A stretch of 64,000 bases of DNA from Ilex aquifolium (Eukaryota; Streptophyta; Magnoliopsida; Aquifoliales; Aquifoliaceae), in assembly GCA_951799425.1 (NCBI GenBank), contig OX637399.1, positions 13,136,501 to 13,200,500 on the forward strand, written 5' to 3'. The notes beneath the pieces are model-generated. The model was given only the letters and a program-made list of their open reading frames with translations. It did not search any database and was not told where the DNA came from. The stretch's first letter is position 1, and every line of letters starts with the position of its first letter. Shown here piece after piece: positions 3,672 through 36,539 of this stretch. A program made the position numbers and the translations under genes.

Positions 3672-4025
3672 TGTAAAACCCCGGAAATTTGAACTTTTTC
3701 CAAAAAGGGCAAAATAGTAATTTGCCACTATAATGCGTATTTAAAATACTCATGTTCTAGACCTCGGATGAGTAAACGGAGTTCGCCGTTGGATTCGTAT
3801 CGCGGAAACGAGTCACCTTGTCAAATTTCGTCGAATTCCGAGATAGTCGGATTTTACACGTCGTTCGAGGCGACTGCGTGGCGAATAACTTCACGAACGT
3901 CCCCATGAATAAATTTTACAAAATTTCCGTAAAATTGAATTAAAGATCAAATAAAATTATTTTGAACTTAAACCGGGATCAAATAAATCGTTTCGGCACT
4001 AAATCGGACCCGATTAAGCGAGGGA

Positions 4026-4066
4026 CACGTGGCGCGACGTGGGCCGAGTATTTGAAACTATAAATA
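4026..4066 (+). promoter_or_regulatory. LTR promoter: G-box/ABRE-like CACGTGGC plus TATA box
   Basis: CACGTGGC at 4026-4033 lies 26 bp upstream of TATAAATA (4059-4066), with a second ACGTGG at 4037-4042. ACGTGGC is the known core of abscisic-acid response elements bound by plant bZIP factors. At the same place in the 3' LTR (about 8620-8640) the box has decayed while the TATA remains (8657-8664). Function is inferred from motif and spacing only. Confidence 0.5.
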
Positions 4067-5713
4067 GGGGTAAATATCTAGAAAATCAGATTTTTCTTTC
4101 CCTTGTGTTCTTGTTTGGCCGGCCAAGAGAGAGAGGAGAGAAAATAGAATTTTCTTCAAGCTTTCTCCGTCGATTCCCGGAGTTCCGTCGCTCGGATTCC
4201 GTCGAGCCAAGAGCTAAAGTCGATCCTCTCGGCGAGGGCTACACAACCACCCCAAGAACGAGGGATTTCACCGAAGATCCAAAGAAGGAGATTTGGGGGG
4301 AAATCTAGTCTTGGGCTAGGAAAGAGTTCTTGAAGCTTCCTTCGGGTGATTACGCTTCAAGAGGTAGGGTTCTTCTTACTTTGGTGTAATCTTTTCTTAG
4401 ATGTTATTAGTCTAAAGTTTTGATATGCTATGCCTAGGATAGACCTTCATATATAGGTTTATGGTCATAGAAATGGAAAAGTGAGCATAGAGATGGTTTA
4501 AATCTAATTTCTAGCTTAACTTTGGTGTATGAAGTTACATGTGAATTATTATGTAACTTGGGGAAATTTGAGGCATGATTATGAGATTTATAAATTGTGC
4601 CTAGAAGGTGTTTGATTAAATGTCTTGTTTGAATGGAAGTAGTTGTTTTAATTGAATTGAAATAACATGCTTAAGTTTAACTTGTGGAATCATATGCATA
4701 TGATATGATTTGTAATTAAATGTGCTTGTTGATATATGCATATGTTGATATAGTAACATTGAAATGAATATGGTAATTATATGTTTAGGATATAAATTTA
4801 CCATGGATGTGTTGAAATTGTGCATGTGTTGTTCTTGACATATTGAACATCATGTGGTATGCAATGGGACATAGCATTGCATGTGCACGGAAGCATCTCA
4901 TTACATGGGTGTGTGCATGGTTGATGTCAACGCCACACTTGGTGATTGACGAAATGGCTTGGGAAAAGTTGGGTCGAAGACCTAGCTAAGCCCATGATTG
5001 CATGATAAATTGGGTCGGGATGAGCAAGAAGAGGCATGACGACCTCTCGGGTGAAAGACCCGGTGATTTGGGGGGTGCACTCCATTGGTATAAGAGCCCA
5101 TAAAGTGTACGGGTGTGGAAGACCATTGGTATGAGTCCATGAAAAAGTCCGATCCCAAGAAAGACCCTAGCTTTGAAAATGTCATTTGATGAAACATAAA
5201 TGATGAAATGAAACACCTTGGCATTGCATCGTGTTGTAGGAGTCGGTGAGGACTCGGGTTAAAATGCATGAGGGAGTGACATCTAATTTCATGGCATGGT
5301 AGTATTGCATTCCAACTTAGGATGCATGTCCTTGTGAGAAATGATTGTTTGCAAATGAATGTTGCATGAGCATGAGCATCTAGGGGGAGAGTAGTCGTTG
5401 TAGGGTTTACTTTACTGGGCGTTGGCTCACCCTATACGGGAAACATTTCAAGTGTGGGGTTTGCACCGGCGGATGGCTCACTTGGAGAGCATCAAGCATG
5501 AAGGGGGCCGGCTTGTGGCCTTAGTTCGAGTTTTTGTAAAACTTTTGTATAAATTCCATTTTCATGTGTAAATTATGGAATTAATTGTAATGGAACTTGT
5601 ATAAGTTGTGTATTATATGGAAATCCTTGTCAAACATGTATTTGATGAATTGGGAAGGGTTTTGAATGGCTTGGAAATGAAAAACAGGTAAAAAGGGCAA
5701 TTCTGGGCCAGGC

Positions 5714-5887
5714 GTACCGGTACGGTTAGGTCCAGAAGGCGTAGCGTACCGGTACGGTCAGGTCCAGTAGGCGTAGCGTACCGGTACGGTTAGGTCCAGA
5801 AGGCGTAGCGTACCGGTACGCGTACCGATACGCGTACCGGTACGGTCAGGTCCAGTAGGCGTAGCGTACCGGTACGCGTACCGGTAC
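5714..5887 (+). repeat. GTACCGGTAC palindrome cassette, 32-bp units
   Basis: Seven perfect GTACCGGTAC palindromes start at 5714, 5746, 5778, 5810, 5834, 5866 and 5878, with a one-mismatch copy at 5822. Main spacing is 32 bp, with 12 bp in the tight groups. The 22-bp spacers carry TCCAGTAG or TCCAGAAG in the middle. The block lies about 1.65 kb downstream of the TATA box, in the 3' part of the LTR. Confidence 0.95.
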
Positions 5888-6168
5888 GCTCTCCAAAATT
5901 CAGAATTTTTTTTATTCTTTTGCCAAGTCTTTGGGCTATGTTTTCCTTCCTTCTAATGTTACAAATGGATAATAAGGGGATACCAATGGTGGTATATTGG
6001 ATCTCGGATAGGTCAACCAACCGAAAGAAATTGGACTTGTATTTTTTTTTATCCCGGTAAAGGGAATGTGGTGCCGCGGTATCGGGTTAAGCGACATCCA
6101 CGGGTAATTCCGCGGGTTGACGGGTTGTCAACGGTTAATACAGGACCCCCGGAAAATGGGGCGTCACA

Positions 6169-12121: not shown

Positions 12122-12330
12122 GCGCCTAGGCGCCCAAAACCAGCACCCCAGCGCTAAAATTCTGTACCCATGCCAGTGATCCAGCGCCTAGGCGCCCAGG
12201 CAGCGCCCCTGCGCATCCCAGGCAGCCTCCAACACAGCCCAGGCAGTGCCCCTGCGTGCCAGGCAGCGCCCCTGCGCCCAGTCCCTGCCTAGGCAGCGCC
12301 CCTGCGCGCCCTTCCAGCGCCCAGGCGCGC
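12122..12330 (+). repeat. GC-rich palindrome block, GCGCCTAGGCGC core
   Basis: The perfect 12-bp palindrome GCGCCTAGGCGC occurs at 12122-12133 and 12184-12195, 62 bp apart, with CCAGTGATCCAG just before the second. CAGCGCCCCTGCGC-type half copies then run to about 12330. The same words (CAGCGCCCCTGCGC) recur in this element's own 3' LTR at 15643-15703. Confidence 0.85.
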
Positions 12331-15406: not shown

Positions 15407-16738
15407 TGATGAGTGGGTTTTATACCTACGAATTGAGTACTTTCGGTTTGATGAAATTGCAAGTTTTTAATTATTTTATGTTCCTTTTTATTTTTTTTGT
15501 GTGTTTTGATGTTATTTTGTAGGGATGATCATTTAGAAGGAAACAAGATGATTTGGAAGGAAACAAGGTCAATTTGGAGCCAAAATGTTGGATTTTTGAA
15601 GGCTAAACAACAAGGGAAGATGCTAGGCTTAAAAGGGGTCAGCGCCCCTGCGCCACAAGGGCAGTAAATCAGCACCCCTGCGCTGATTTTGGCGCAGCTG
15701 CGCGTGTGTGTGGCTTTGGACGCGAATTCCGACTTGTTTTTGACTCGAAATTGGACTCTACTGCCTCTTATGTGCTAGGGTTTGAGGGGAATATAAAAAT
15801 ACTGATTTTGGGGGCTGAAAAGGGAGAGAAGAAGACCAATGATTGATAGAAAATTGAAGGCAAGAATCGAAGGAACCGACACGAAAAAAATCGGACTTGA
15901 ATGCTAGAGAGGAATTGAAGATTGCAACTAAGTTTTCATTCTTTTCCCTTACTTTTACTTCTTGATTTTCTAAGATGCTGTTTAATTTGAGAAGGATATT
16001 TTTCAATTATATTATGAACTAAATTTTTATTAAGATTGCAACGGAACCTAATGTCTAGTTAAATTGATCTACTCTCGTTTCTAGTTTTTGTTGATCTTAT
16101 ATGATTTGTTTGTCATATTTTGTGTTTAATATATGATTGTTTGGCCAACAATTAATTTGATAACTTAGACGAAATTGGGAGATGAATTCTAGGTTTAGAT
16201 ATGAATATGATGACATGCGTCTGGTTAATTTTTCTAAGGATTGAGTTGTTGGGTTTGTGTATAGGATAAGAATATACATATATGCCGTGTGTAACTTTTA
16301 TGAGAGTTTGAACTTAATGAATCTATTCCAACTTATTTTGCATAGGAATATAGCAATTTAATTGGGAGAGATATGCTTATCTAACTATCGGAAGAGGTTT
16401 GATAAATAATTTTGAAGTCTCAGTTAACAACTTATTTTGATCAATTAACTGGAAAGAGAGTGGAATGATTTATACGAAGCATTAGGGGAAGTTGTAATCT
16501 TAACTTCTTTTATCCGGTAAATTCAACCCTTGATTATTAAGTTTAGATTTAGTTTTAAATTAGTCATTCCATAGTTCAACTCCAATTGTTTAAATAAAAT
16601 TGAATTGATATAAAGTTAGTACCTGAAAGTTATTAGTAATAATTCTCCGTGGGAACGATACTCTACTTATCACTTTATTACTTGTTGATCGTGTATACTT
16701 GCACATAAATTGTCAATACCAAATTCGGACAACATTCA
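15407..16738 (+). repeat. 3' LTR of Athila P (right end approximate)
   Basis: Begins TGATGAGTGG after the polypurine tract. The end is placed near 16738 because sequence matching the minus-strand element M begins there; candidate CA ends lie between about 16718 and 16738. No coding. A GC-palindrome block lies about 235-297 bp from its start. Confidence 0.75.
15643..15703 (+). repeat. Palindrome block in P LTR, GCGCAGCTGCGC core
   Basis: CAGCGCCCCTGCGC, then CAGTAAATCAGC, then a second CACCCCTGCGC and the perfect palindrome GCGCAGCTGCGC at 15692-15703. It sits at about the same distance from the LTR start as the GTACCGGTAC block of E3, but with a different core. Confidence 0.8.
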
Positions 16739-19541: not shown

Positions 19542-20058
19542 TGTAACACCCCGAATTTTCTTTTATATATTTATAGAGATATATATATATATAGTAAATA
19601 ATATTTGTAAAGATGTAGATATATGTAGTGACATAAGAATAAACCGTAGGAATAAATGCTATGGAGACAATTTGATTGGGAAGTTACGTGTCGAAGATGT
19701 TTAAACTTGGAAAGGGTGATTAGACAAGTTTCTAAAAGTTTGTAGGTCAAAATAATGATTCCATTGAATCCGGAAGGTCGAAAAACATTGGGAGTGGTAA
19801 TATGGATGTATTGGAAGTTAGGAAGTGTCTCGGAGTTAAAATACACTTTAGCAAGAATTTGGGTAAAAATGGGTATTGAACACTACATAGTGTTTTGGCC
19901 ATAACTTTTTATCCTTAAGTCCAATGGATCTGAAATTTTTACAGTAGATAGTAGACATCTAGGGCTACAAAAGTATGTCTCATGAAAATTTTCCACTTCG
20001 ACCTCTAAATGGGTGAAAACTGTATTGGAAGTTGAAACAAAAATCTGGTAGTCAAACC

Positions 20059-20112
20059 GTACCGGTACGCCGAACTCCAGTAGCTAAACCGTACCGGTAC
20101 GCGTACCGGTAC
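20059..20112 (+). repeat. GTACCGGTAC palindrome cassette in T LTR1
   Basis: Palindromes start at 20059, 20091 and 20103: spacing 32 then 12 bp, the same as in the solo LTR. The 22-bp spacer holds TCCAGTAG at the same offset (7 bases). The last palindrome ends about 52 bp upstream of the TATA box, so the cassette is promoter-proximal here. Equivalent blocks: 38785-38850 (LTR2, spacing 12-32-12), 44060-44113, 49325-49378, 54590-54643, 59855-59908. Confidence 0.93.
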
Positions 20113-20209
20113 GACCGATAAAGCCAGCCCGATCCGACTGCGGGTCTTTCTCCATTTCTTCCACTATAAATACTTAAGGCCGACTATTTGAGCCCCATTT
20201 CAGCCTTCT

Positions 20210-20507
20210 AAACCCTAGGCACCTTTAGAGAGAAAGAGATGGAGAGAAGAACGTCAAAGATAAGGAGAGATACACCATTTTAGAAGATTAAAACCCTAGA
20301 TTTCTAAGATTTCACTTCTCTACTCATTCTCTTTTCTTCCATTCTTCACCCACTCTCACCCAAATCTTTTGAAAACCCTAGGGAGGGGGAATTAAAAAGG
20401 AAAAGAAAGGAAAGCAAGAAGGTCTTGAAGCTTGCGTATTTGGCTAAAACTCTTGAGCATTGAGGTAGGGGATTTCTTCCTAATCTCTTACATTGAGGCT
20501 AGGGTTT
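20210..20507 (+). promoter_or_regulatory. Telo-box motifs (AAACCCTAG) in T LTR leader
   Basis: AAACCCTAG at 20210-20218, 20291-20299 and 20373-20381, and its complement CTAGGGTTT at 20499-20507, all downstream of the TATA box. Telo boxes are known plant promoter/leader elements bound by Myb-type telomere-repeat factors. Nearly all are kept in the other T LTRs (LTR3 has AAAATCCTAG for the second). Confidence 0.6.
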
Positions 20508-20614
20508 ATGTATATATATATATATGTTTTTCACTCTCATCCTTATATACATGATAAGAAATACATGATTCTTGTTCCTCTTGAAATAAATGCCATGTTT
20601 TGAACATTGTGATG

Positions 20615-20619
20615 GTTGG
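20615..20619. repeat. Target-site duplication GTTGG (left)
   Basis: Pairs with 34076-34080. Intact T LTRs have GATGGTTGGGTAAC here, with a single GTTGG. Confidence 0.95.
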
Positions 20620-22332
20620 TGATTAGCACACAACTTTGTATATTTTTAAGATGCTAATCAACTCATTTCACTTACTTTTGAGCTTTAAATTGTCTAAGTT
20701 ATGACGATTGAAGTCTTAACATCAATTTGTTGTTTTGTAGTTGAATGAAGCTAAATGTGGCCTTTAAAGACCCTCCCATACCACTTGGGATGAAAGGAGT
20801 TGAAATGATAGTTTGAGGATAGATCGGGAGCAAAGAAATCAAGAAATTCAGAAAAGGATGCATAACAGTACCGGTACCCAGTACCGGTACTGAAAACCTA
20901 CTGGAATCGTAGTACCGGTACCAAATGGTACCGGTACCCAGTACCGGTACTGAAAACCTACTGGAATCGCAGTACCGGTACTCGGTACCGGTACCAAATG
21001 GTACCGGTACCCAGTACCGGTACTGATTCCCTAAAGTGCTCAAATTCTGCAGATCTGCTCAGCTGTCTTGTGGACCCCTCCATGCTTTTCTCTGACACGC
21101 CCACCTTACTGTTCATCATGATTCACACTCCCTTCTAGACTTGCGGAGTTAAGGCATTGATTGAAGAGAGGAGGATGGGATGTGCTGGGTGTGGAGACAT
21201 ACTCTGCCACCCCCTGTCTTTCCCTGGCTGCTGCATCCCTATGAAGAAAATCACATCTGTAGACCCACTTCTCTCTGCAGGCACGTTTGTGGAAAAGGAA
21301 GAGTCTCCTGCAAGAGAGATATTGATGTATTACATTAGATAGTTTTAGAGAGAGAAGCTCTGGCGAGGAAGACAATGAATAGTAGATTCTAGAGAGAGAA
21401 AGTTGTAATTTTCACTTATTTTTCCAGTACATTGCCTTGCATTCTTCTCTAAGACTCTTTAGAACTTCTTTTAATGCCATTAATGTAAGTCATTTCATGC
21501 TTTGCACTAGTTTAATGTTCTCTTCCACTTTCTACCATTAATGAATGAAAGTTCTTCATTTTCACAACTATGTAATGGTTTTAAATGCATTTTCTTGTAG
21601 CTTATGAATTATTGTACTTTGTAGCTTTAGAAGTTCATAGATTTGCAATGCACTTTTATTACATAGTTATTTCCATTCCAAGTATGAGTAGCTAAACACT
21701 TTTTGTTGGCAAGACCAAGGGAAATCCTCATTTGGGTATACCATTTCAACTCTCTCTACACCCTCCCTTTAGAGTCCCATGGTTCGGTTTGACCGGATTG
21801 AAGGTGGATGAATTGGTGAATCTTTGATAAACCGTAGGCCTAGTCACGGTTTATGCTTAGGCATTCACCAACATCATCCTCGGCTTTACGTGAATCAACC
21901 GTTCATTCTTGCTCAATCGGAGGAGTGATTTGAGTGGAGATAGTATACCTATTGGAGGGACCTCTTGGAATTGCCAACGCTCGTTCTCTCATTCTAAGTT
22001 CACCAAAACACACTTCACCAAACAATTTCCAACAACAAGAATTTTACACTTTCTTTTGCACTAAATCACTTTCACATTTGCTCACTTCCTTCCCTGTGGA
22101 ATCGACCTTGGAATACTTTCCAAGTAAAACACAACTCACGAAAGTCTCCTTGCGATTGGGGAGCATTTTTGTGCATACACATCCCATATCTACATTATCC
22201 CATTTCCCTTTCCTATTGCCCTTTCTTTTCACACTATCCCAAAGGGGGAGAAATCCTTCCTTCCGCTCATACATTGCATCAATTGAGGGATAGTAGTTAA
22301 AGGGTTAGGAATAGGATTGTTTTGCTCAATCA
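20620..22332 (+). repeat. E3 5' LTR
   Basis: 1713 bp, TG...CA ends. Same length as the 3' LTR. Short ORFs in it are also present in the 3' LTR and are not conserved genes. The U5 part ends AGGATTGTTTTGCTCAATCA, just before the primer site. Confidence 0.95.
20868..21023 (+). repeat. GTACCGGTAC palindrome cassette, E3 5' LTR
   Basis: Nine palindromes start at 20868, 20881, 20912, 20928, 20941, 20972, 20985, 21001 and 21014: spacings 31, 13 and 16 bp. The 21-bp spacers contain CTACTGGA (complement TCCAGTAG). 156 bp in all, the same length as in the 3' LTR but with the subunits in a different order. Confidence 0.95.
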
Positions 22333-22336
22333 TTTT

Positions 22337-22354
22337 TGGCGCCGTTGCCGGGGA
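22337..22354 (+). promoter_or_regulatory. Primer binding site, Asp tRNA
   Basis: TGGCGCCGTTGCCGGGGA, four bases after the 5' LTR; the usual Athila primer site. Confidence 0.92.
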
Positions 22355-22491
22355 AGGCTAGTGTCAAATCAAGGAAGTGATTTCCGAACAACGGAGGTAA
22401 GTCCCGTGATTTTCATCACGGGCTGAGGTACGTTATTTCGTGTATATATTCTTGTTTGTTTCCAATTTCATTTGTATAGATATCTTGTTGC

Positions 22492-25400
22492 ATGTGGGGA
22501 AGGGACGACTATCACCGATTAGTTAGACAACCCTTAGGCCCCAACATGAACATCGACCAAGACCCACCCGAGGATGCGGGTGACAATTTCGAAAATGTGG
22601 ATGTCAACCCAAACATCCAAGGGGGTGGAAATTTTGACAATGTCGGGGTGAATCCAAATGCTCAAAGGGGTGGGGGGTTACCCGAAAATAGGATGCCTAA
22701 CCCAAGAATGCAATATCCCCCTCTAGATGCTTTTGATAATGAGGATGCTAACCCGAATAGGCAAATGGGTGGGGGATTCCAACAACCTAGGATGCCCAAC
22801 CCACGAGTGCAATTTCCCCCACCTAGGAATGAAGGGAACATCCAACTTGACCCTCCACCAAGGACAATGCGGGAGTTCCTTCAACCGACCCGTAGCTCCA
22901 CACCATCATGCCTTGTCCTTCCTGTCCAAGCACATCTCTTTGTAATCAAACCATGGATGTTGCAACTACTCCCTAAATTCCATGGGGTTGAGAAGGAAAA
23001 CCCTTATAGTCATTTAAAGTCTTATGAGGAAATAGTTGCAACCTTTATCCCAAATTACAACATGGAAGAGATTGCAAGGATGAAACTTTTCTCTTTTTCC
23101 TTGGAGGGTAAGGCAAAGATTTGGTTTGATTCCATGGGACCTCGGACCATGCTATCTTGGGACTATATAGTTTCATTCTTTTTGAAAAAGTTTTTTCCGG
23201 TTCATAGAACCACTTCATTGAAAAAAGACATTCAAAACTTTTCTGAAAAACCCAATGAACAATTCTATCAGTGTTGGGAGCGATATAGAGATTTGATTCA
23301 ATCCATACCACATCATGGTTTTACATCGTGGCAATTGGTGAGTTTCTTCTATGATGGAATCTCACCAAACCATAGGCAATTTATTGATATGATGTGCAAT
23401 GGTGAATTTTTGAACAAAGACCCTGACGAGGCCCTTGATTACTTTGGTACCTTGGCCGAAAATGCACAATCGTGGGATGTTAGGGATCCAAGTGATGTAC
23501 CTAGGACAATGCCAGTGAGTAGTCAACCACCACGGGGAGGGATGTATGACTTAAAAGACCGTGAGGATCTACTTTCCCAAATTTCCAAATTGTCTAGGAA
23601 AGTGGATAGCCTTGAGGTGGAAAGGAGACGAGAGGTGTCTCATGTGTCAAGAGCCGAGGAGGCTTGCTCTATTTGTGGGGGTGTCGATCATTCCACGTCG
23701 GAGTGTCCGAGCATTCTGGCACTTAAAGAGACATACCATGAACAGGTCAATGCCTTCAACCAACCGAGGCAATCATTTCCTCAAAATTCCAACACTTACA
23801 ATTCAGGGTATCGTGATCACCCTAATTTCAGTTGGAGGAATGAGAACCCCATTCCTTATGGCTCAAACACATATACACCTCCCGCACCTCCTAGGCAAGG
23901 CCAATTTCAATCCCAGGGTCAAGGGCAAGCCTCTAACTCCCAATACCCACGATCTAATCCGCAAGGGTATCAATCCAATCCTCCCCCACAAAATTTCTCC
24001 CAACAAGGTCCGTCTAGTTCTTCCATCTACCAACCCCCTCATAAGATGAATTTGGAAGATATGCTCCACAATTTCATTCAAACCCAGACCACCCTCAATC
24101 AAACCTTCACTAATTTCATGCAAAGCCAAACCACCTTCAATAAGGACATTTCGGCCCAACTCACCAAGATCACCAATGCCATTGGGTTGTCTCAACAAGA
24201 GAAGGGAAAATTTCCCTCTCAACCCCAACAAAATCCCAAAGGTCAAAATGTGGTTGAGTTGGCCGAGACTTCCCAGGAGGGTTTTGAGCAACTCAAAGCT
24301 GTCACCACACTTAGGAGTGGTAAACAAATTGAAAAGATGGTGGTGCCAAAGTTGACACCAAAGGCCGCATTGCCAAAAGAAAAAGAAATTGATAGTGAGG
24401 CCAAAGAAAGTGAGGCCAAAGAAAGTGTGGTCGACAAGGGCGAGCCGAGTGAAAAGAGTGAGAGAGATGGGGTTGATAAAGAACATGTGATTGATGATGG
24501 TTTATGCTTTCCTTCCATGTCCGCCCCTTTTCCCCATCGTTTGAAGCCACCCGTCAAGGTGGCTAATTATGCTGACATTCTTGAGATTTTCAAGCAGGTA
24601 AAGATAAACATCCCGCTCCTGGATGCCATCAAGCAAATCCCCTCTTGTGCAAAGATCTTAAAGGACTTGTGCACAGTGAAAAGAAGGCTAAATGTCCACA
24701 AAAGAGCATTCCTTACCGAGCAAGTGAGCTCAATTTTGAGGACTAACACTCCTCCCAAGTTTAAGGATCCCGGCTGCCCCACCATTGCCATAACCATTGG
24801 AGATTGCCGGGTGGAACAAGCCTTGCTTGATTTAGGTGCTAGTGTGAACCTCCTCCCCTACTCTGTGTATCAACAACTTAAGCTGGAGGAACTGAAGCCT
24901 ACTTCAATCACGCTTCAACTGGCGGACCGCAGTGTTCGCACACCAAGGGGAGTAGTTGAGGATGTTTTAGTCCAAGTGGACAAGTTTTACTTTCCTGTTG
25001 ATTTCATTGTGCTTGATACTCACCCTGTTGCTAACCTTAGCTCTCAAATCCCTGTGATACTAGGTAGACCTTTCCTTGCTACATCTAATGCTGTGATTAA
25101 TTACAGGAATGGTCTTATGAAGCTGGCATTTGGAAACATGACAATGGAGCTTAATGTGTTCAACCTATGCAAGCAACCGGGAGATGATGAGGATGCACAT
25201 GAGGTAAATCGGATTGATACTTTGGTGGAAGAGCACATGGAAGTGATGAGCACTTTGAGTTTGAAACATGAAGAAGTGGTTGAGCATGAAGAAGTGGTTG
25301 AGCATGAAGAAGTGGAAAGCTTGAAAGGGGTGGATAAGTGGATTCCTACATTTGAAAGACTCCCACACCAAGAAAAGAAGATATTCCCATCTGATGTACA

Positions 25401-28368
25401 AAAACCTACCTTAGAATTGAAGCCTTTACCTTCCCATTTGAAATATGCATATCTTGGGGAAGATGAATCGTTCCCGGTGGTGATTAGTTCTACATTGGAT
25501 GTAAAGCAAGAGGGAGAACTCTTGGAGGTGCTGCGGAGACATAAGGGAGCAATTGGGTGGACAATTGCGGATATCAAGGGGATAAATCCTACCATTTGCA
25601 CACACCGGATCTACCTTGAAGAAGATGCAAAACCATCTCGCCAGCCACAAAGGAGATTAAATCCGATCATGAAGGATGTGGTACGGGATGAGGTTTTGAA
25701 ACTACTTGACGTGGGCATTATCTTTCCAATTGCCGACAGTAAGTGGGTTAGTCCCACGCAAGTAGTACCCAAGAAGTCGGGTGTGACTGTGGTAGAAAAT
25801 GAGGAGAATGAACTCATTCCAACAAGGGTAATCACTGGATGGAGAGTGTGTATTGATTACCGGAAGCTCAACTTGTGCACAAGGAAAGACCACTTTCCAA
25901 TCCCATTCCTCGATCAAGTGCTAGAACGGGTAGCGGGGCATCTTTTCTATTGCTTCTTAGATGGATACTCTGGCTACAATCAGATAGAGATTGCCCTTGA
26001 AGACCAAGAGAAAACCACCTTCACTTGCCCCTACGGTACCTTTGCGTATCGTCGCATGCCTTTCGGGCTATGTAATGCGCCTGGAACATTCCAACGTTGC
26101 ATGATGGGGATTTTTAGTGATATGGTGGAGAAGATTGTCGAGGTGTTTATGGATGACTTCTCAATCTTCGGGGATTCTTTTGAGGGGTGTTTGGAAAATT
26201 TGGAGAAGGTGTTGGAGAGATGTGAGGAGAAGAATCTTGTGCTGAATTGGGAGAAGTGTCACTTTATGGTGACGGAAGGGATCGTGTTGGGTCACATAGT
26301 GTCGGCAAGGGGCATCGAAGTTGACAAATCCAAGGTGGAGGCCATCTCCAACCTTCCCACGCCGACAACTATCAAGGGTATCCGGTCATTTCTAGGCCAT
26401 GCAGGTTTCTATCGCCGATTCATTCAAAATTTTAGCGCATTGGCCCGACCCCTGACCAATTTACTGTCTAAGGAGATTCCTTTTGAGTGGTCGAATGAGT
26501 GTGAGGCATCATTTAAAAAATTAAAAAGCATGCTTGTCACGCCTCCGATCATGCGACCACCCAATTGGGATCTACCCTTTGAGCTTATGTGCGACGCGAG
26601 TGACTACGCGGTTGGCGCAGTGCTTGGTCAGAGGAAGGACAATCGACCGCATGTTATACACTACGCTAGCAAGACACTTAATGAGGCACAAATGAATTAC
26701 ACTACCACTGAAAAAGAATTGCTAGCTGTAGTGTTTGCTCTTGATAAATTCCGTTCATATATCATTGGTTCACCTATTGTTATCTTTACTGACCATTCTG
26801 CTTTAAAGTACTTGTTATCAAAGCAGGATGCGAAGCCAAGACTCATTAGGTGGATCCTCCTCCTACAAGAATTTGACTTGATCATTAAAGACAAGAAGGG
26901 AGTTGAGAATGTCGTGGCGGATCACTTGTCCCGACTGGTGGCACAAGAGACAAATGAGCACATCCCTATCACAGACTCCTTCCCTGATGAGCAATTACTG
27001 TCCATTCATTCTCATTGTCCTTGGTATGCTGATATTTGCAATTATCTTGCAACAGGACAAATCCCACCACACTGGAGCCCTGAGGATAAAAGGAGGTTTA
27101 TGGCGGACGTCAAGTACTTTTACTTCGATAATCCGTATCTGTTCAAGTACTGCCCAGACCAAATCATGAGGCGATGTGTGCCTGAAAATGAGCAGCGGAA
27201 TGTCCTTGCCTTCTGTCACTCCTAAGCCTGCGGTGGCCACTTCTCCGCCAAGAAAACTTCTTAAAAAATTCTCCAATCAGGTTTCTACTGGCCTTCTTTA
27301 ATTAAGGATTGTATTTCATTTTGCAAAGAATGTGATAGATGCCAACGTTTGGGGAATGTGACCCGGAGGAATATGATGCCCCTCTCCCCTGTACTTGTCA
27401 TAGAGATATTCGATTGTTGGGGCATTGACTTCATGGGTCTCTTCCCTATGTCGTTTGGCTATCTATACATTCTGCTGGCAGTGGACTATGTGTCCAAATG
27501 GGTGGAGGCTATCCCAACCAAGACTAACGACCACCGGGTTGTAGTCAAGTTCTTAAAAGAGAACATTTTTTCGAGGTTCGGGACGCCTCGTGCGATGATT
27601 AGTGATGGTGGATCACACTTTTGTAACAGGCCATTTGCATCTTTAATGTTTAAATATGGCGTTACTCACAAAGTATCCACCGCTTATCACCCACAAACAA
27701 ATGGCCAAGCCGAGCTAGCCAATAGGGAGATCAAGACCATCCTTGAAAAAACAGTTAACCCCAATAAGAAGGATTGGTCTGAGAGATTGATTGATGCCCT
27801 GTGGGCATATCGTACTGCCTACAAGACAGTTTTGGGCATGTCTCCCTATCGGCTTGTCTATGGAAAGGCATGCCATCTGCCGGTAGAAATGGAACACAAG
27901 GCCTTTTGGGCCATCAAGACTTTAAATTTCAATATGAGAATGGCCGGGAAACATAGGATGTTAGAAATGAATGAATTGGAAGAGATTCGGCGGGATGCAT
28001 ACGAGAGTTCAAAAATTTCAAAGGAACGGGCGAAAATCTTTCATGATAACTCCATAGTGAGGAAATCATTCGAGCCCGGGCAAAAGGTACTCTTGTATAA
28101 TTCCCGCCTCTCCATTTTTCCCGGAAAGCTAAGATCCCGTTGGGATGGCCCCTATCTTGTCAAGGTGGCCTACCCCAATGGAGCTGTTGAGATCACCAAC
28201 CTCAAAGATGGCCAAACATTCAAAGTCAATGGCCAAAGACTTAAGCCATTCTTTGAGGGCTTTGAAAACCAAGTGGTGGAGGAGGAGTTAACCGACCCGG
28301 TGTATCTGGAAGTGATTGAGGAATACCAATTGGTCCTTTGTTCGCATGTACAGTTTCCTTTATTTTAA
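22492..28368 (+). pseudogene. gag-pol: E3 gag-pol polyprotein, two nonsense codons
   Basis: One frame throughout, 1577 codons to TAA 27223 and then on to 28368. Order: Asn/Pro-rich N-terminus; Gag domain (about residues 165-320, with FSFSLEGKAKIWFDSM); zinc knuckle CSICGGVDHSTSEC (residues 392-405, CX2CX4HX4C); Gln/Pro-rich linker; acidic and Lys-rich stretch; protease with LLDLGASVNLLP (about 778-789) and VILGRPFL; RT (about 1050-1300) with WRVCIDYRKLN and catalytic FMDD near 1217; RNase H ([37 protein letters not shown]); integrase with Asp in WGIDFMG, Asp in SDGGSHF, Glu in NREIKTILE. Stops: TAA 27223-27225, where M still has the Glu of CHSEACGGHF, and TAA 27262-27264. Both hit the zinc finger; everything else reads through. 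Confidence 0.95.
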
Positions 28369-28555
28369 TTATGTCATGTTTTTATTTCATGTCAATTACT
28401 TGTTGTTGCTATATAACTCTGTTTTCTTTTGAATCAAGATCTTGGTGTGTTCGTCAAAAGCTCGAATGCGAGGTGTTTTCTTACCCTTCTCATCTTTTAT
28501 TGTCTTTCATTGCATATGCTATCTTTTTGTTGCATTGAGGACACTGCATGATTCT

Positions 28556-28570
28556 AGTTGGGGGGTGAGG
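28556..28570 (+). promoter_or_regulatory. Internal polypurine-like tract of E3
   Basis: AGTTGGGGGGTGAGG followed by the palindrome GGTGCACC, preceded by TTGCATTGAGGACACTG. The 12-base core AGTTGGGGGGTG is identical to the one in front of the 3' LTR (32351-32362). Confidence 0.65.
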
Positions 28571-30380
28571 TGCACCACTTGTTAGATGCACCAGATTTTT
28601 TTTTGTGTACTCCAATTTTGTGTTGCATTGGTACAAAATATGTGAGAAATTTTGAAAATTTTTGATGAAAAATACCTTTAAGTTGATCTGTATTCCCTTA
28701 TGAAGTGAGTATGAACTGGATGACATGTTGATTGTTGCTGTGAACCTTGTGCACATGAGCTTACTATAGAAATGGATCCTATGCATAAGTATCACATATG
28801 TATTGATTTTTCGAACTCATCTGTATGTGATTTATGAATTTGTAATTTCAGTGATTTACGGGTTGGATTCATGTTTTAAGCTTGACATAAGTAGTGGAGA
28901 TGAGTAAGGACCCATGAGAGTTTTAGTGCCAAACCTTTTTGGAGGGAACTTACGTTTACTCAAAGAAAAATTTTTGATATCAAGTTTGTTCAATAGTCTC
29001 ATTATGCTTGCTTTGGTTAGTTGCATTTGGTTAGTAGACTGATTTGTCTTGATCATGTAATGCTCTCCCCATGTGGACCTGGAAGTGATCTTAGGCCATT
29101 GTTGAATACTTTGAGCCTTAGCCCTTTTTCTTGAGAAAATTTTATCCCTAGTGCCGTGATTGAGCCCATTTTAAAATTCGTTTCTATGCCACACATTTGA
29201 CCAAGCCAATGCAAAATGATAAAAATCTATCTCACCTTGGTTGTTCCTAGAGCTGAATATGAGTGAGTGCAAAAGAGAAGGAAGTGTGGTGTGGAAACTC
29301 CAACAAAAGGGATGAATGATTTGAAACTCAAAGAGTTGAATGAAAATCCAAGAAAAGGAGAAAAAGAGGTGAAAAGAATAAAGAGTGATCAAAAGAAAAG
29401 GAAGATGTTAAGAAGAGTTAAGAAAATAAACAAGGGGTGTGGTGATGGTGAGAAAATCAAAATCCCATGAAAAGGAAGTGTTTTTCCAACATTAAAGTCT
29501 CTCACTCGGAACAACCCTCTTTGTTGTCCTTTTTTCTTCATTTCTTTTACCTAGATATCACCCCAAGGCCCCGTTACAACCCTTAAAGCCCTAAGTGATC
29601 TAGAGAAGCATGGGAGAAGCATATTTGTTAAAGAAATGATAAGTTTAGTCTTACTACCTAATGCACTAATATTCCATTCATGAGACTATGCCAAGGTTGC
29701 CTCATTTTCATATATGAACTTCATTTTTGGATTACATGTGAGCACTTTTTTTTGAACACAAGATTCCATATCACATGTACACATGGAGTGCATACCAGTA
29801 TAACGTGAGTGCAGTTATTGCTTAAGAGTGTCCCTTGGTGAGTTTTGCATTGAAACTGAGTTTGTCTAGCCTGTCGAATGTGAATTCTGTTTCGTAAATG
29901 CCCAAATTACTTGTTTAAATTCACATGCACACGAGTTGAAAATTAATTGGTAGGTGCATACTTCTGACTAGCATTGGGGACTATGGTTTTGCTCATGTGC
30001 ATCTAGTTCGTTCAATTAAGAAATTTGTTAAAAAGCTTCATGCTTACAAGAATGAGGGAATATTTCTCAAGTTATTGATATTGACATATTTTAGGAATGA
30101 ATTGATTCTGAACCTTATGATGTTTATTTTGGGTGCTCATTTTGATAGTTGAGAACAGAATTTGAATTTTTGTATGATGAATGTTCATAGGTTTAAATCA
30201 CCTTGCAATTTCAATCATAAAGTGAGCATGATGGTTCGAGTTGTGGGTTATAATTGGAATATATATTTTCAAATGGAGTTGGAGTTAGAAGTAATGTGAT
30301 GAAGTGTCTAGGAAGGGCCTAAGTTGATTTTGATTGAAGGAATGTTTCAGCAGGAGTAGTTTGGCGGACAAAGCAGAACA

Positions 30381-30507
30381 GTACCGGTACTCGGTACCTG
30401 TACCAAATGGTACCGGTACCCAGTACCGGTACCAAAAACCTACTGGAATCGCAGTACCGGTACCCAGTACCGGTACCAAATGGTACCGGTACCGAGTACC
30501 GGTACCG
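30381..30507 (+). repeat. GTACCGGTAC cassette upstream of env-like ORF
   Basis: Same core, same 21-bp CCTACTGGAATCGCA-type spacer and same CAAATG linker as the E3 LTR cassette, about 340 bp upstream of the env-like ATG. One palindrome has a mismatch (GTACCTGTAC). Confidence 0.93.
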
Positions 30508-30847
30508 TCTGCCTGACGAGAAAAAAAATTAGGGCTTTTAATTTCAAAACATAAATTCAACCTTTCATTTCCCTCATTTACTCCTTCCCTACCTACTCCC
30601 CCCTTACCCGATGGCACTCCAAGGGTCAAGAACCCTTTCTCTCTCCCTCTTCACTCTCCCCATTTACTCCTCCCCTTCCTTCTTCCCCCCTACCCGACGG
30701 CACTCCAAGGGTCAAGAACTTTTTTTTCTTCCCCCTCAGTCTATAAAATTCCCTTGAGCTAGATTATTTTCCACAAGTTCTCCTCCATTTTACCCTACCC
30801 TTATAGCCGAATCTCAAGTTCCTCCTATTCTCTCCATTCATTACACA

Positions 30848-32044
30848 ATGCCTCGCACCAAGATGGTCGGATCAGGACCAGAGCCCAGTTCTCCTCCTGC
30901 CATGGGTTCTGCCAGCCGCAAAAGAAGTGGAGAAGGCTCGAGTGGGGACCTTGAGAAACAGAGAAAGAAGGCCAAGAGGGATGCTCGACGCCAGTTGATT
31001 GACGGTAAGAATGTGACCTGTGAACGTTTTTTGGATAGGCCTTCCCTTTCCCCCATTCATCCTGCTGTGAAAATCATTGAGGGGCATGGGATGCATTTCT
31101 GGTTTAAGGAGGTTGTGGGATATAATTTGGCTTTGGTGAGGGAGTTTTACCGTTCACTAAATTTCATTGAGGATGATGATGAGGGAGTGTTGAGAGCAAA
31201 TGTCAGGGGTAAGATTATTGTGGTGACCCCTGATGTCATAGCCACATGCCTTGGGGATTACCAGAGACCCCCATCCAGACCACCCGTTTATCCTCGCAAA
31301 ATGGGTAAGCCGAAGACCAAGGAGGAGCTTGTCGAGTTGATGTATGAGGATCCTGCTACGTTCAGGGGAACCTTTCAGAGTGGGGGGTTGAAGTATGTTT
31401 ATGGGATTCTTAACAAACTCCTTCACTATAATCTTTACCCAAAATTCGCAGAGAAGAAGCCCAATGTGGAAAAGTTGAACCTTCTGGATACCGTTGTGTC
31501 GGGCAAAACAATGGATTTTGCCCTTATCATTTGGGATGTGATGAAGGACTTTGCCACCACTGAGAAGCCGATGGCCAATCTACCATACGGAAGCTTGGTC
31601 ACCCGACTTTGTGACCATGCTAAGGTTAAGGGCTATGGACTGGAAAAACTGACCCCCCCTGAGTTTGGAGCTATTGGCAGGGCCAGCAGTCAGAAAAGGA
31701 AGGCTATGAGCCGTGGGGATCGGGCTCAATCTGATTCTGAAGAGGATGTTGCACCTGCTGTGCCCACCATGCCATTCAAGCCTGTTGTGAAATGCTTAAC
31801 CCATCAGAGACTTGGTGCCCTGGAAAAGACAGCGCATGAAATTAAGACCTCAGTCCAGGAAATGGCAACAATGTTGAAGGAGATGTATGTACACACATTT
31901 CCTGAGAAAGCTGTCCCAGAAGTTCCGGCTGCTCCTTCAACCTCCAGAATGGATGTGGAGGAGAAAGATTCTGAGGCTGATCATGATGAAGAAGATGAGG
32001 AGGGGGATGAATTTGAGGGTGATGATGAGAGCGATGGAGAGTAG
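30848..32044 (+). CDS. E3 env-like ORF, putative plant transposon protein domain, intact
   Basis: 398 codons, uninterrupted. Basic Ser/Pro-rich N-terminus with likely nuclear-targeting KRSGEGSS and KQRKKAKRDARR (residues about 20-50); a globular middle (about 55-270) with FWFKEVVGYNLALVREFYRS, GKIIVVTPDVIATCLG and VSGKTMDFALIIWDVM, matching the domain known only from Athila-like third ORFs; a helical stretch about 320-350; and an acidic Asp/Glu C-terminus. No signal peptide or membrane helix is apparent, so despite the name an envelope role is not supported; a nuclear or nucleic-acid role fits better (inference). It is the only large ORF intact from start to stop in the window. Confidence 0.85.
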   Translation: MPRTKMVGSGPEPSSPPAMGSASRKRSGEGSSGDLEKQRKKAKRDARRQLIDGKNVTCERFLDRPSLSPIHPAVKIIEGHGMHFWFKEVVGYNLALVREFYRSLNFIEDDDEGVLRANVRGKIIVVTPDVIATCLGDYQRPPSRPPVYPRKMGKPKTKEELVELMYEDPATFRGTFQSGGLKYVYGILNKLLHYNLYPKFAEKKPNVEKLNLLDTVVSGKTMDFALIIWDVMKDFATTEKPMANLPYGSLVTRLCDHAKVKGYGLEKLTPPEFGAIGRASSQKRKAMSRGDRAQSDSEEDVAPAVPTMPFKPVVKCLTHQRLGALEKTAHEIKTSVQEMATMLKEMYVHTFPEKAVPEVPAAPSTSRMDVEEKDSEADHDEEDEEGDEFEGDDESDGE

Positions 32045-32350
32045 TTTGTGTTTGGGATTTCTGTGCTTTATTTCTTTTTGTTTTGGGTTTAGGTGAAGTT
32101 GAGGAGGGGAGATTAGGTTTTTCTTTTGATTGTTCTTTTCAATGTCCTACTCCGTTTTGTACTCCAACTTTGTTCACAATTAATGAATCCACAGTTGTTC
32201 CTTTTTGCTCATTGTTTATGTTGTCAATTGCATTTGGATTTTTACTTTTCATTTGACTGAATGGTTGTTTAAATTGATTGATTGTGTGATTTATGGTTGC
32301 TTTGGTTGTGCTGGGAAATGAACATTTTGCTAAGGGACTAGCAAAACTTA

Positions 32351-32362
32351 AGTTGGGGGGTG
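32351..32362 (+). promoter_or_regulatory. E3 polypurine tract
   Basis: AGTTGGGGGGTG abutting the 3' LTR start TGATTAGC. Confidence 0.9.
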
Positions 32363-34075
32363 TGATTAGCACACAACTTTGTATATTTTTAAGATGCTAA
32401 TCAACTCATTTCACTTACTTTTGAGCTTTAAATTGTCTAAGTTATGACGATTGAAGTCTTAACATCAATTTGTTGTTTTGTAGTTGAATGAAGCTAAATG
32501 TGGCCTTTAAAGACCCTCCCATACCACTTGGGATGAAAGGAGTTGAAATGATAGTTTGAGGATAGATCGGGAGCAAAGAAATCATGAAATTCAGAAAAGG
32601 ATGCATAACAGTACCGGTACTCGGTACCGGTACCAAATGGTACCGGTACCCAATACCGGTACTGAAAACCTACTGGAATCGTAGTACCGGTACCAAATGG
32701 TACCGGTACCCAGTACCGGTACTGAAAACCTACTGGAATCGCAGTACCGGTACTCGGTACCGGTACTGATTCCCTGAAGTGCTCAAATTCTGCAGATCTG
32801 CTCAGCTGTCTTGTGGACCCCTCCATGCTTTTCTCTGACACGCCCACCTTACTGTTCATCATGATTCACACTCCCTTCTAGACTTGTGGAGTTAAGGCAT
32901 TGATTGAAGAGAGGAGGATGGGATGTGCTGGGTGTGCAGACATGCTCTACCACCCCCTGTCTTTCCCTGGCTGCTGCATCCCTATGAAGAAAATCACATC
33001 TGTAGACCCACTTCTCTCTGCAGGCACGTTTGTGGAAAAGGAAGAGTCTCCTGCAAGAGAGATATTGATGTATTACATTAGATAGTTTTAGAGAGAGAAG
33101 CTCTGGCGAGGAAGACAATGAATAGTAGATTCTAGAGAGAGAAAGTTGTAATTTTCACTTATTTTTCTAGTACATTGCCTTGCATTCTTCTCTAAGACTC
33201 TTTAGAACTTCTTTTAATGCCATTAATGTAAGTCATTTCATGTTTTGCACTAGTTTAATGTTCTCTTCCACTTTCTACCATTAATGAATGAAAGTTCTTC
33301 ATTTTCACAACTATGTAATGGTTTTAAATGCATTTTCTTGTAGCTTATGAATTATTGTACTTTGTAGCTTTAGAAGTTCATAGATTTGCAATGCACTTTT
33401 ATTACATAGTTATTTCCATTCCAAGTATGAGTAGCTAAACACTTTTTGTTGGCAAGACCAAGGGAAATCCTCATTTGGGTATACCATTTCAACTCTCTCT
33501 ACACCCTCCCTTTAGAGTCCCATGGTTCGGTTTGACCGGATTGAAGGTGGATGAATTGGTGAATCTTTGATAAACCGTAGGCCTAGTCACGGTTTATGCT
33601 TAGGCATTCACCAACATCATCCTCGGCTTTCCGTGAATCAATCGTTCATTCTTGCTCAATCGGAGGAGTGATTTGAGTGGAGATAGTATACCTATTGGAG
33701 GGACCTCTTGGAATTGCCAACGCTCGTTCTCTCATTCTAAGTTCACCAAAACACACTTCACCAAACAATTTCCAACAACAAGAATTTTACACTTTCTTTT
33801 GCACTAAATCACTTTCACATTTGCTCACTTCCTTCCCTGTGGAATCGACCTTGGAATACTTTCCAAGTAAAACACAACTCACGAAAGTCTCCTTGCGATT
33901 GGGGAGCATTTTTGTGCATACACATCCCATATCTACATCATCCCATTTCCCTTTCCTATTGCCCTTTCTTTTCACACTATCCCAAAGGGGGAGAAATCCT
34001 TCCTTCTGCTCATACATTGCATCAATTGAGGGATAGTAGTTAAAGGGTTAGGAATAGGATTGTTTTGCTCAATCA
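32363..34075 (+). repeat. E3 3' LTR
   Basis: 1713 bp; nearly identical to the 5' LTR apart from the cassette and scattered substitutions (for example CTTGCGGA/CTTGTGGA, TTTACGTG/TTTCCGTG). Confidence 0.95.
32611..32766 (+). repeat. GTACCGGTAC palindrome cassette, E3 3' LTR
   Basis: 156 bp, nine palindromes (one with CCAATACCGG). The CTCG-plus-CAAATG linker unit that is third in the 5' LTR appears first here. Confidence 0.93.
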
Positions 34076-34080
34076 GTTGG
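34076..34080. repeat. Target-site duplication GTTGG (right)
   Basis: Right copy; the T LTR continues with GTAAC at 34081. Confidence 0.95.
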
Positions 34081-35310
34081 GTAACTATTAAATTTCTCCT
34101 TTTCATCTTCAAACCTTGGTTTTAAAGAGAAATGGACTTTTCCCTCTATTTTCCCTTGGTATTGCTTTCAAAACTTTAGTGTTTGATATTGTACACCAAA
34201 ATGTTACTTATGATGATCTCTTGCTCATTTTCTTCCATCATATTATGAAACATTATATTAGAAATTGTGAAATTTGGTAATTCCTTGAAATGTTGATGAA
34301 TTGAGAATATTTTGGTTTCCTCAATTGTATGGTTGTTGTGAGGGACTTGGATTGCCTTCGAGAGATGTCGTAGAGTGTTAGATGTTAGTCTACCCCAGTG
34401 GGGGTGAGATGGTTTCCTAGCACTTGTAGTGGGTTGTCATTTGGTAATGAAACCACTATCGTTCACTGGAGTTCGAACAAGGGATAGTATACTTTTCCTG
34501 GGAAGGGACTCGTCACTGCCATTGGGATGGTAGACGCCCTTTCCTAAAATGCTTGTGAATGTGATTGTGATTGGTGGACTAGGTATAATCGTTGGGTAGA
34601 TTCATGAGAAGCAATCAACATACATGGTACGGGGATGAACCAATATACATGGGATGATGAGTTGGAACGTCTTGGCCGGTGCATTGGTATGGGACAATGC
34701 ATCGGAAGACGCCCTTCCGAATTGGCCTAACTTTGGACACGGTGTATTGTTGTTCAATTTAATTTATTCTTTACTTGATTGTTGTTATGGCTTAAACTTG
34801 AGATCTCTTTAAACTGTCCTGTTTTTCCTTCAAAAATTGATATATATTATTTTTGAAATGTGACCGACCCGTTTTATATTTTTTTATAAACCTTTTTTCA
34901 GTTGGGAAGATTTTGCTACAGAGCTTCGTGCTCATCCCCTACCAATTTACATTTTTCAGATTTGGTGCTAGAGGAGGATCTCGGCATCGACGAGTCAGGG
35001 CATTGGGAGGCTCCACTCGAGGGGAACCTAGATCCCGAGGTGGATATGTAGAGATGTAACTTCTTTTGTACTAGACTAGGTTATTCTTTTGGACACTGTG
35101 AGGTCTAGTTTATTTTGCTATTCCGCTGTGCTACTTTAATTAATTTTTGAGATGTAAATGCCATGGTTGGGCATATTCTTTTGGATAATGATGTAAATAT
35201 TTTATGGATGATGAATGAAGTTTAATGTATTTATGAATGATATTAGTGCTCTCATGATGTAAATGGTTTTAGTGTGTAATGCCGTCCAGGGTGTGTTTTG
35301 GGGCGTTACA
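34081..35310 (+). repeat. T LTR1, right part
   Basis: Continues LTR1 to GGGGCGTTACA. No coding; the ORF near 34853 is also in the other LTRs and has no recognisable domain. Confidence 0.93.
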
Positions 35311-35314
35311 GATT

Positions 35315-35327
35315 TGGTATCAGAGCC
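35315..35327 (+). promoter_or_regulatory. T primer binding site, initiator Met tRNA (copy 1)
   Basis: TGGTATCAGAGCC, full 13-base match, four bases after LTR1. Equivalent sites: 40590-40602, 45855-45867, 51120-51132, 56385-56397. Confidence 0.92.
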
Positions 35328-35621
35328 TAGGCTTTAGGTCTTACATGGGAGCTGTAGGTTATGGATTACCACTAGAAAGGTAGGACTAGGTTGAAGAAAC
35401 CTTAGGCTTGAATTTGTTTGTGGTTATGTGTTTATCAAATAGGTAAGATTTGTTGTTTATTTAGGTTAGGGGTTAATTATTTGTTCGAATTCGATGAATT
35501 GTCTTGCTACGCAATCGAGTTTGTGGCCCCTGATGCAAAGAGGGCTAAACGCTTTGAACAAGATTTGAGGCCTTCCATTCGCGAGAAGAGGGTCACACTC
35601 TGAATTCGAGAATACAAGTAC

Positions 35622-36146: not shown

Positions 36147-36309
36147 AGGGTTTTTGCTTTGACTCAACCAGAGGAAGATGTCTCCAACGCCGTTGTGGAA
36201 GGTATCGTCCTTCTCTACCATTCTTGGGCCCGAATTTTTATTGGATTCCTATGCGACTCATTCTGTTATACGTACTGCGGACGCTGTGGAATTGGGATTG
36301 GGTTTCTAG
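36147..36309 (+). pseudogene. pol: T protease remnant with altered active site (copy 1)
   Basis: A frame with the VFALTQPEEDVSNAVVEG lead-in of chromovirus protease and, one frame over, LLDSYATHSVIRTADAVELG. The family active site Asp-Ser-Gly-Ala-Thr-His-Ser reads Asp-Ser-Tyr here (Asp codon at 36244), so catalysis should be lost. All five copies carry it; equivalents start 5275, 10540, 15805 and 21070 bp further on. Confidence 0.75.
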
Positions 36310-36539
36310 GGAATAGAACTTACTGTATATGTTAACTTGCCTACGGGAAAACAAGGGGATACCAGTAGGGTTTATTTATATGTACTCTTTGACTCTAATT
36401 TATATCTACTTGCTAGGAAATCATCATGTCTTGCCATTCTGGATAATACTACCTTGTTCCAAAATATATTATGGTGAGGTAAACCCTAAATCTTTTCTTA
36501 TGCCTTCAAACCCTAGTTTACAAAGGAGATGTGTTTTTT

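Follow-up and report, generated by a model that had tools for sequence, protein, structure and literature searches.

A palindrome-word-palindrome unit shared by arrays in Athila and Tekay-type retrotransposons of Ilex aquifolium

The window, a 64,000-nucleotide stretch of the Ilex aquifolium genome, contains nested LTR retrotransposons to which we apply the lineage names Athila and Tekay; we presume these names to be correct, as they rest on an earlier reading of the DNA and on known lineage features. In Athila E1 and E3, the reverse transcriptase and RNaseH precede the integrase, which is the gypsy order. The integrase pieces fell into two groups, E1/E2/E3 and the Tekay-type elements, and the E3 integrase showed 86-92% identity to E2, 60% to E1, and 27% to Tekay. 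A Tekay-type solo LTR (TGTAAAAC...GTCACA; 3672..6168, forward strand) carries the 5-bp repeat TGATT on both sides, its ends and flanks being read directly. It sits inside the pol of another Tekay-type element, and its first 720 bp are 69% identical to the Tekay-type LTR at 8269. An inverted copy (77%) of the Tekay-type LTR end (6051-6168) was found at 437-556, near the start of the Tekay element. Athila E1 (203-436, 9112-13733) is apparently split by the Tekay-type element that itself holds the solo LTR.

The element termed T (19542..61642, forward strand) consists of five tandem LTR-internal units and a sixth LTR, with the 5-bp repeat CTTAT at both ends. The units are about 99.4% identical in shifted self-alignments, and we count the six LTRs as one family because they are copies within one insertion; tandem LTR arrays have been published for Cassandra elements (PMC7215508). 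T carries Tekay-type integrase remnants, with 54-56% identity at the integrase C-terminus. This places T and the solo LTR in one clade, though their LTRs do not align, and leaves Athila versus Tekay as the only distant pair. The original prediction had spoken of unrelated lineages, which holds for Athila against the Tekay clade but not for T against Tekay.

Athila E3 (20620..34075, forward strand; LTRs 20620-22332 and 32363-34075; 5-bp repeat GTTGG) is inserted in the first LTR of T and splits it; the overall nesting is deep, E3 lying within T and T within Athila E2. ORF3 of E3 (30848..32044, forward strand; 398 aa) was identified as an open reading frame with a domain match to PF20167 (Putative plant transposon protein). 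Two proteins among 4546 candidates were homologous to ORF3 at E<=0.001, and no relatives of E3 pol or of the Tekay integrase were present in viral_contigs. We take Athila ORF3 to be an env-like gene.

The 10-bp palindrome GTACCGGTAC, referred to as P, occurs in the whole window as 49 perfect and 5 one-mismatch matches against 0.48 expected, and none of 100 dinucleotide shuffles of the window gave as many as these 54. Arrays in the Tekay-type solo LTR, the six T LTRs, and the LTRs and internal region of Athila E3 hold 53 of the 54 matches; the single match outside them is GTACCGGTAA at 6801. The Tekay solo array (5714..5887) comprises eight palindromes, seven perfect and one reading GTACCGATAC, with spacings, in order, of 32, 32, 32, 12, 12, 32, and 12 bp and four 22-bp spacers centred on TCCAG[T/A]AG. 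The LTR of the surrounding Tekay element (from 8269) is without such an array. The T LTRs together hold 18 perfect and one single-mismatch copies. The cassette of T LTR 1 (20059..20112) reads P-22-P-2-P, and TATAAAT starts at the 53rd base after it; the cassettes of the other LTRs lie at 38785..38850 (LTR 2, with one extra 12-bp unit, GTACCAGTAC), 44060..44113 (LTR 3), 49325..49378 (LTR 4), 54590..54643 (LTR 5), and 59855..59908 (LTR 6). All six show spacings of 32 and 12 bp, with TCCAGTAG at spacer offset 7.

Within E3, the 5' LTR array (20868..21023) contains nine perfect palindromes with spacings of 13, 31, and 16 bp, and the 3' LTR array (32611..32766) contains eight perfect copies and one ATACCGGTAC, in blocks like those of the 5' array but offset by whole repeat units. 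A third E3 array (30381..30505; seven perfect copies and one GTACCTGTAC) lies outside the LTRs, between pol and ORF3. It is 94% identical to part of the 3' LTR array over 83 bp, and the flanks are unrelated. A possible TATA box of ORF3, CTATAAA (30741..30747, forward strand), starts at the 236th base after this internal array. Just upstream of it is a pyrimidine-rich direct duplication of about 90 bp (30564-30742), which we take to resemble the Y patch of plant core promoters. A fourth family copy, partly decayed, was detected in the presumed 5' LTR of Athila E2 (63745..63829, reverse strand, measured core to core), where four palindromes with the consensus CCTACCGGTAGG (3/4 cores intact) are spaced by 23, 32, and 22 bp. 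CCTACCGGTAGG differs from P by a symmetric change, and the dyad and half-site are kept.

All four families (Tekay solo, T, E3, and E2) have the 31/32-bp spacing; none of the spacings of 12, 13, 16, 22, and 23 bp occurs in every family, and the spacings other than 31/32 differ among families. The window-wide count and the readout of spacings and words confirmed the original prediction that GTACCGGTAC palindromes with shared spacings and a centred spacer word recur in the Tekay solo, T, and E3 LTRs. With few spacings and a centred word, the arrays do not behave, within this 64-kb window, as a simple repeat with random spacing and no spacer word. The predicted list of Tekay, T, and E3 is correct as far as it goes, but it left out the E3 internal array and the E2 copy. 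The two spacings given for E3, 31 and 13 bp, were recovered, and the further 16-bp spacing had gone unmentioned. Similarly, the placement of TCCAGTAG at offset 7 is accurate for all six T LTRs but for only two of the four long spacers in the Tekay array, the other two carrying TCCAGAAG. As for the proposed helical phasing, the 31/32-bp spacing is in phase to within 17 degrees, but the 12-, 13-, and 16-bp spacings are 51, 86, and 189 degrees out, and uniform phasing of the arrays was rejected on that basis.

The exact full module with TCCAGTAG gave no match in viral_contigs and none in genome_contigs; these holdings are viral and prokaryotic, so its absence from them says nothing about plants. 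P pairs were found at 22 loci (12 and 10) in the IMG/VR scans, and the IMG/VR locus with eight P copies is a coding repeat of a phage-like contig. The exact 10-mer GTACCGGTAC occurs in 40 papers, and the titles of the 20 listed are on unrelated subjects.

The spacers of Tekay, T, and E3 contain the 8-mer TCCAGTAG or its complement CTACTGGA, the latter in the E3 LTR spacers, centred in the 21-22 bp between two P. None of 20,000 column shuffles produced an 8-mer common to the three; the longest word that they gave was a 7-mer, seen once. In E2, the word ATACTGGA (63790-63783) is centred in the 22-bp spacer, and trimming the 8-mer to the part that E2 shares gives the 7-mer core TACTGGA. When one spacer per family (for Tekay, the TCCAGTAG type) was shuffled 200,000 times, this 7-mer, trimmed from the E3 word to the E2-shared part, came to lie no more than 1 bp off centre in 73 shuffles for Tekay, 56 for T, and 74 for E2. 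A degenerate cassette scan required two cores TACCGGTA (<=2 mismatches per core, <=3 together) at a spacing of 30-34 and, close to the middle, TACTGGA with <=1 mismatch. It found 16 places (Tekay 4, T 6, E3 5, E2 1) and none in any of 60 dinucleotide shuffles; it was devised after the E2 copy had been seen by eye, with tolerances that admit that copy. The motif, its spacing, and its centred word are directly visible in four families of two clades, the word running in one direction in Athila (E2, E3) and in the opposite direction in the Tekay clade (T, solo LTR).

No flank homology accompanies these units. Masking the cassette left, as best local matches, 26 bp (E=0.005) between the Tekay solo LTR and T LTR 2 and 35 bp (E=0.040) between an Athila E3 LTR and T or Tekay; the sequences compared were one T LTR, the E3 3' LTR, the E3 pre-ORF3 region, and two Tekay-type LTRs. 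The masked E3, T, and Tekay LTRs do not align, in agreement with the prediction that the rest of these LTRs does not match between lineages. Comparing Tekay, T, E3, and E2 in all six pairs gave 7-8 matching positions out of 8 in the word but 4/14, 3/13, 4/14, 3/13, 7/14, and 2/13 in the spacer flanks, with 7/14 belonging to T versus E2. The spacers of the E3 LTR and E3 internal arrays match at 10/13 flank bases. The E2 and E3 LTRs align at 68-69% downstream of their arrays, and, judging from the alignment offset, the arrays appear to occupy matching places, which makes common descent of the E2 and E3 arrays likely. Across families, the likeness looks like that of sites kept by selection in drifting sequence, or of a very old common origin combined with selection.

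Athila E1 is without P and without the spacer word. Six copies of another dyad, GCGC-N4-GCGC, lie between its pol and ORF3 (12122..12328), and the presumed E1 3' LTR has a second array (15642..15703), 235 bp from the presumed LTR start at 15407, composed of GCGCCCCTGCGC, GCACCCCTGCGC, and GCGCAGCTGCGC. Two of these three are GCGC-N4-GCGC and one has a mismatch; TATAAAA starts at the 89th base after the array. GCGCCCCTGCGC is exact in both E1 arrays. All eight GCGC-N4-GCGC copies of the window are in these two arrays, against 0.03 expected for a pattern that was picked after the arrays had been seen. The LTR array starts 248 bp from the LTR start in E3, compared with 235 bp in E1, and the two Athila families have a pair of arrays at the same two places, in the LTR and before ORF3, with a different dyad in each element. 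Tandem repeats with ATTTTCAGCATCCAAA (12407-12593) adjoin the dyad array in the E1 pol-ORF3 gap. Visual inspection of 14831-14975, between E1 ORF3 and the presumed 3' LTR, showed a further dyad array, in which a unit resembling GAGATGGAGCGTAAAACGCACTC with an imperfect dyad recurs in four degenerate copies.

The arrays turn over rapidly and are rearranged even within one element: the two LTR arrays of E3 are offset from each other by entire blocks, and an extra unit is present in T LTR 2. Outside the array, the E3 LTRs differ at 12/1557 aligned positions (about 0.8%), and 18/20 CG dinucleotides are intact. None of the 57 array columns in T is variable, versus 27/1013 of the other columns in the first LTR piece and 23/1234 in the second, a conservation no greater than chance allows. 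Variable CG sites in T number 1/10 inside the array (a site that straddles the array end as the alignment was read) and 8/43 outside. In the light of these counts, the earlier argument that CCGG should decay yet is mostly perfect here is uninformative. CCGG decay as a sign of selection was rejected, E3 and T being too young; the CCGG and CG tests do not separate selection from youth.

Among the matches listed, the sole direct precedent comes from Sireviruses. Bousios et al. (2010; PMC2829016) described element-specific palindromes, the RM boxes, in 13 Sireviruses, with a CGG-CCG core in 12. Most LTR copies are clustered, starting 200-400 bp from the LTR start and upstream of the TATA, and form CpG islands, and further RM boxes lie upstream of the env-like gene in the nine Sireviruses having one. 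In the accessible text, RM boxes are called Sirevirus-specific with respect to other copia elements, and gypsy or Athila elements are mentioned in three places, none of them a survey. The present arrays are similar in being element-specific palindromes in many copies, near-identical in otherwise divergent elements (PMC2829016). P is a perfect 10-bp palindrome, and the E2 and E1 dyads are likewise palindromic repeated boxes. The Sirevirus Inga box AGCGGTASTACCGCT has the half-site CGGTA/TACCG, as in the P arrays (PMC2829016). A CGG-CCG dyad appears in the Tekay, T, and E3 arrays, which read CGGTAC-N2/3-GTACCG across neighbouring palindromes; it was not seen in E1 and E2, and the E1 dyad is without CGG-CCG, as is that of the Sirevirus Tnd-1 (PMC2829016). 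Set against the RM definition of >=8 copies per element, E3 has 26 (24 perfect) when both LTRs and the internal array are counted, E1 has 8 over two arrays, the Tekay solo LTR has 8, and T has 3-4 per LTR; 4 were seen in E2.

In position, the LTR clusters of E1 (235 bp) and E3 (248 bp) fall inside the 200-400 bp range, and those of T (about 520 bp from the LTR start) and the Tekay solo LTR (2042 bp) fall outside it. The T and E1 LTR arrays are located shortly upstream of a TATA. No TATA was found in the 477 bases that follow the E3 LTR array, nor in the interval separating E1 ORF3 from the array upstream of it, and the sole TATA-like match after the E2 array, CATATATT at the 293rd base, is weak and far downstream. 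In the Tekay solo LTR, the TATA (4059) is about 1.65 kb upstream of the array, and none was found after the array. Additional copies upstream of ORF3 are present in E3 (30381-30505, with ORF3 from 30848) and E1 (12122-12328). The CpG o/e ratio is raised in the arrays relative to the rest of the LTR or internal region in T (1.46/0.45), the E3 LTR (1.0/0.34), E3 internal (1.11/0.27), E2 (0.86/0.27), and Tekay (1.56/0.92). The two E1 arrays, at 0.73 and 0.63, are not enriched (rest of the E1 LTR, 0.83; window, 0.64).

Overall, the present arrays have much of the RM layout in common: E3 and E1 fit it most, T has the TATA position, and the Tekay array shows little beyond palindromes and CpG richness. 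Whereas the RM hosts are Ty1/copia Sireviruses, the hosts here are Ty3/gypsy elements (Athila, Tekay-type, and the derivative T), and the Sirevirus RM description, as far as it is accessible, shows neither a centred spacer word nor a 32-bp module (PMC2829016). Among the matches listed for palindromes or tandem boxes in Athila or gypsy LTRs, no report of this layout in Athila was found. RM-type palindrome arrays are known from Sireviruses, and the present arrays are most likely of that type, in Ty3/gypsy elements and with a composite P-word-P unit.

Other known systems share single aspects. In Del (Tekay) LTRs, Cruz et al. (2014; PMC4029996) described plastic CpG islands, which are likewise CpG-rich blocks of variable length and were proposed to help escape host control. 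Unlike the present case, eudicot Del elements are described without an island, the accessible text shows no Athila link, and its main text lacks "palindrom-" and "tandem". The anti-silencing VANC targets of VANDALs (Hosaka 2017 and a 2023 follow-up; PMC5735166, PMC10398659) resemble the arrays in having a short family-specific motif in fast-evolving tandem arrays at several non-coding places per element; they differ in that VANDALs are DNA transposons and the motif YAGTATTAY is bound by a known TE-encoded protein, and "palindrom-" does not occur in PMC5735166. In Brassicaceae COPIA elements, the LTR heat-responsive elements (PMC5059998) are a host-factor site that arose repeatedly in the LTRs of separate families, but there the factor is known (HSFA2, nGAAn clusters), and no shared long-range module is evident in the accessible text.

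The reading we favour, with slightly more confidence than doubt, is that the arrays are RM-type cis-regulatory palindrome modules in Ty3/gypsy elements and that Athila and the Tekay clade share the P-word-P unit through a common factor. Each palindrome would be a site for a homodimeric DNA-binding factor with the half-site TACCG/CGGTA, and the predicted site for a dimeric protein stays the best reading of the binding that we infer. Two such sites, 31-32 bp apart (about three turns), would flank a second, directional site with the core TACTGGA. The P-word-P unit would then act as a composite enhancer, multiplied by slippage. Bound in the LTR, the factor would activate the genomic transcript; bound at the additional array ahead of ORF3 in Athila, it would also activate a distinct ORF3 transcript, presumably from an internal promoter. 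The contact bases would be kept while the remaining sequence drifts. As Athila and the Tekay clade carry the same unit, they would use the same factor, most likely a host-encoded one. In favour of this reading stand the excess of P, the cassette scan with its empty shuffles, the centred word conserved between unlike flanks, the symmetric change in the E2 palindrome, the paired arrays of E1 and E3, the TATAs after the T, E1 LTR, and E3 internal arrays, the raised CpG o/e outside E1, and the Sirevirus precedent. Weighing against it are the position of the Tekay solo array, the TATA misses after the Tekay, E3 LTR, and E1 internal arrays and the weak match in E2, the lack of P, word, and CpG enrichment in E1, the reversed direction of the word between the clades, the unphased and variable spacings other than 31/32 bp, the chance-level conservation of the T array, and the array-free LTR of the surrounding Tekay element. 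A literature query requiring five terms together gave no paper on a plant factor with an ACCGGT palindrome.

Several other explanations bear on the same observations. The cassette may have moved between families by template switching or recombination, with the palindromes being merely recombining ends, which we regard as unlikely. Template switching between plant LTR elements has been published (PMC1950507), and copying of an array within an element does occur, since the E3 LTR and internal arrays share palindromes and spacers (10/13 flank bases; 94% over 83 bp) within unrelated flanks. Because P-S-P is both a direct and an inverted repeat, its spacer could flip, which may account for why the word runs one way in Athila and the other way in the Tekay clade, and the T-E2 pair, at 7/14 flank bases, stands above the other pairs. 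In the other five pairs, however, the flanks match at 2-4 of 13-14 positions while the P core and the word persist. A recently transferred cassette would bring its flanks, as in the E3 LTR and internal arrays, and a recent transfer between families was rejected because the spacer flanks are mostly unlike (2/13-4/14; T-E2, 7/14); an ancient transfer followed by selection would need a selected site anyway. Of the two alternatives originally offered, selection by a host factor and template switching, selection fits better, given a word conserved at 7-8/8 versus flanks at 2/13-7/14. Improbable to a greater degree is a neutral minisatellite, whose palindromes would be kept perfect without function by slippage, unequal exchange, and hairpin-templated correction. 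Such homogenisation accounts for the sameness within an array and is consistent with the block shifts between E3 LTR arrays whose flanks differ by about 0.8%, with the extra 12-bp unit in T LTR 2, and with the strong hairpin potential. It leaves unexplained why four families with mostly unalignable flanks have the same P core, 31-32 bp spacing, and centred word, and why E1 and E3 each place a pair of arrays in the LTR and before ORF3 yet differ in motif.

The hairpin potential could itself be the function, with the paired palindromes as the stem and the word in the loop of an RNA or single-strand DNA structure for packaging, dimerisation, or RNA-protein contact; we consider this very improbable. 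Computed with single-strand DNA parameters, folding beats shuffles in the E3 arrays (z -12.6 and -12.1), a 145-base part of the Tekay array (-6.3), and E2 (-5.4), and more weakly in T (-3.0) and E1 (-2.1 and -2.7). For the E3 internal array, the fold is a single hairpin that exposes the word in its loop. Self-complementary 10-mers in an array must fold in any case, though, so these z-scores add no independent support. An RNA loop is disfavoured by the word running in opposite directions in Athila and the Tekay clade, and also by the position of the T array upstream of the TATA of T. Complementary outer base pairs (distinct contexts: Tekay 5/5, T 4/5, E3 LTR 5/8, E3 internal 3/6) were rejected as hairpin evidence, the contexts not being independent. 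Finally, the factor might be encoded by the elements, the Athila ORF3 protein or another element protein being a putative VANC-like binder from which T and Tekay borrow; to this we assign a very slight chance. The array precedes ORF3 in both E3 and E1, and the motif type differs between E1 and E3 at both places at once. VANDALs provide a precedent for short tandem motifs co-evolving with a TE protein (PMC5735166), and a paper on Retand suggests that accessory proteins bind DNA and mentions tandem arrays (PMC11963269). Against this, tblastn gave no ORF3 match in the Tekay-type or T parts of the window, and the E1/E3 contrast amounts to two families only.

A broader version, an operator system shared across plant Ty3/gypsy elements, appears improbable. 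Here, one dimeric trans factor, perhaps Athila ORF3 (PF20167), would recognise TACCGGTA both in the LTRs of Athila and upstream of its ORF3; the Tekay clade, with its non-autonomous derivative T, would carry the same operator in order to exploit that factor. If so, the dyad that E1 has instead in its LTR and before ORF3 would serve a regulator whose specificity had changed.

More generally, palindromic boxes in LTRs and ahead of env-like genes had been described for Sireviruses. Much of that layout in Athila, and the composite site that Athila shares with the Tekay clade, suggest a common control input for distant plant retrotransposon groups, and also that Athila could transcribe its third ORF from a dedicated promoter. 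The factor behind the arrays would give a handle on how these elements escape silencing.
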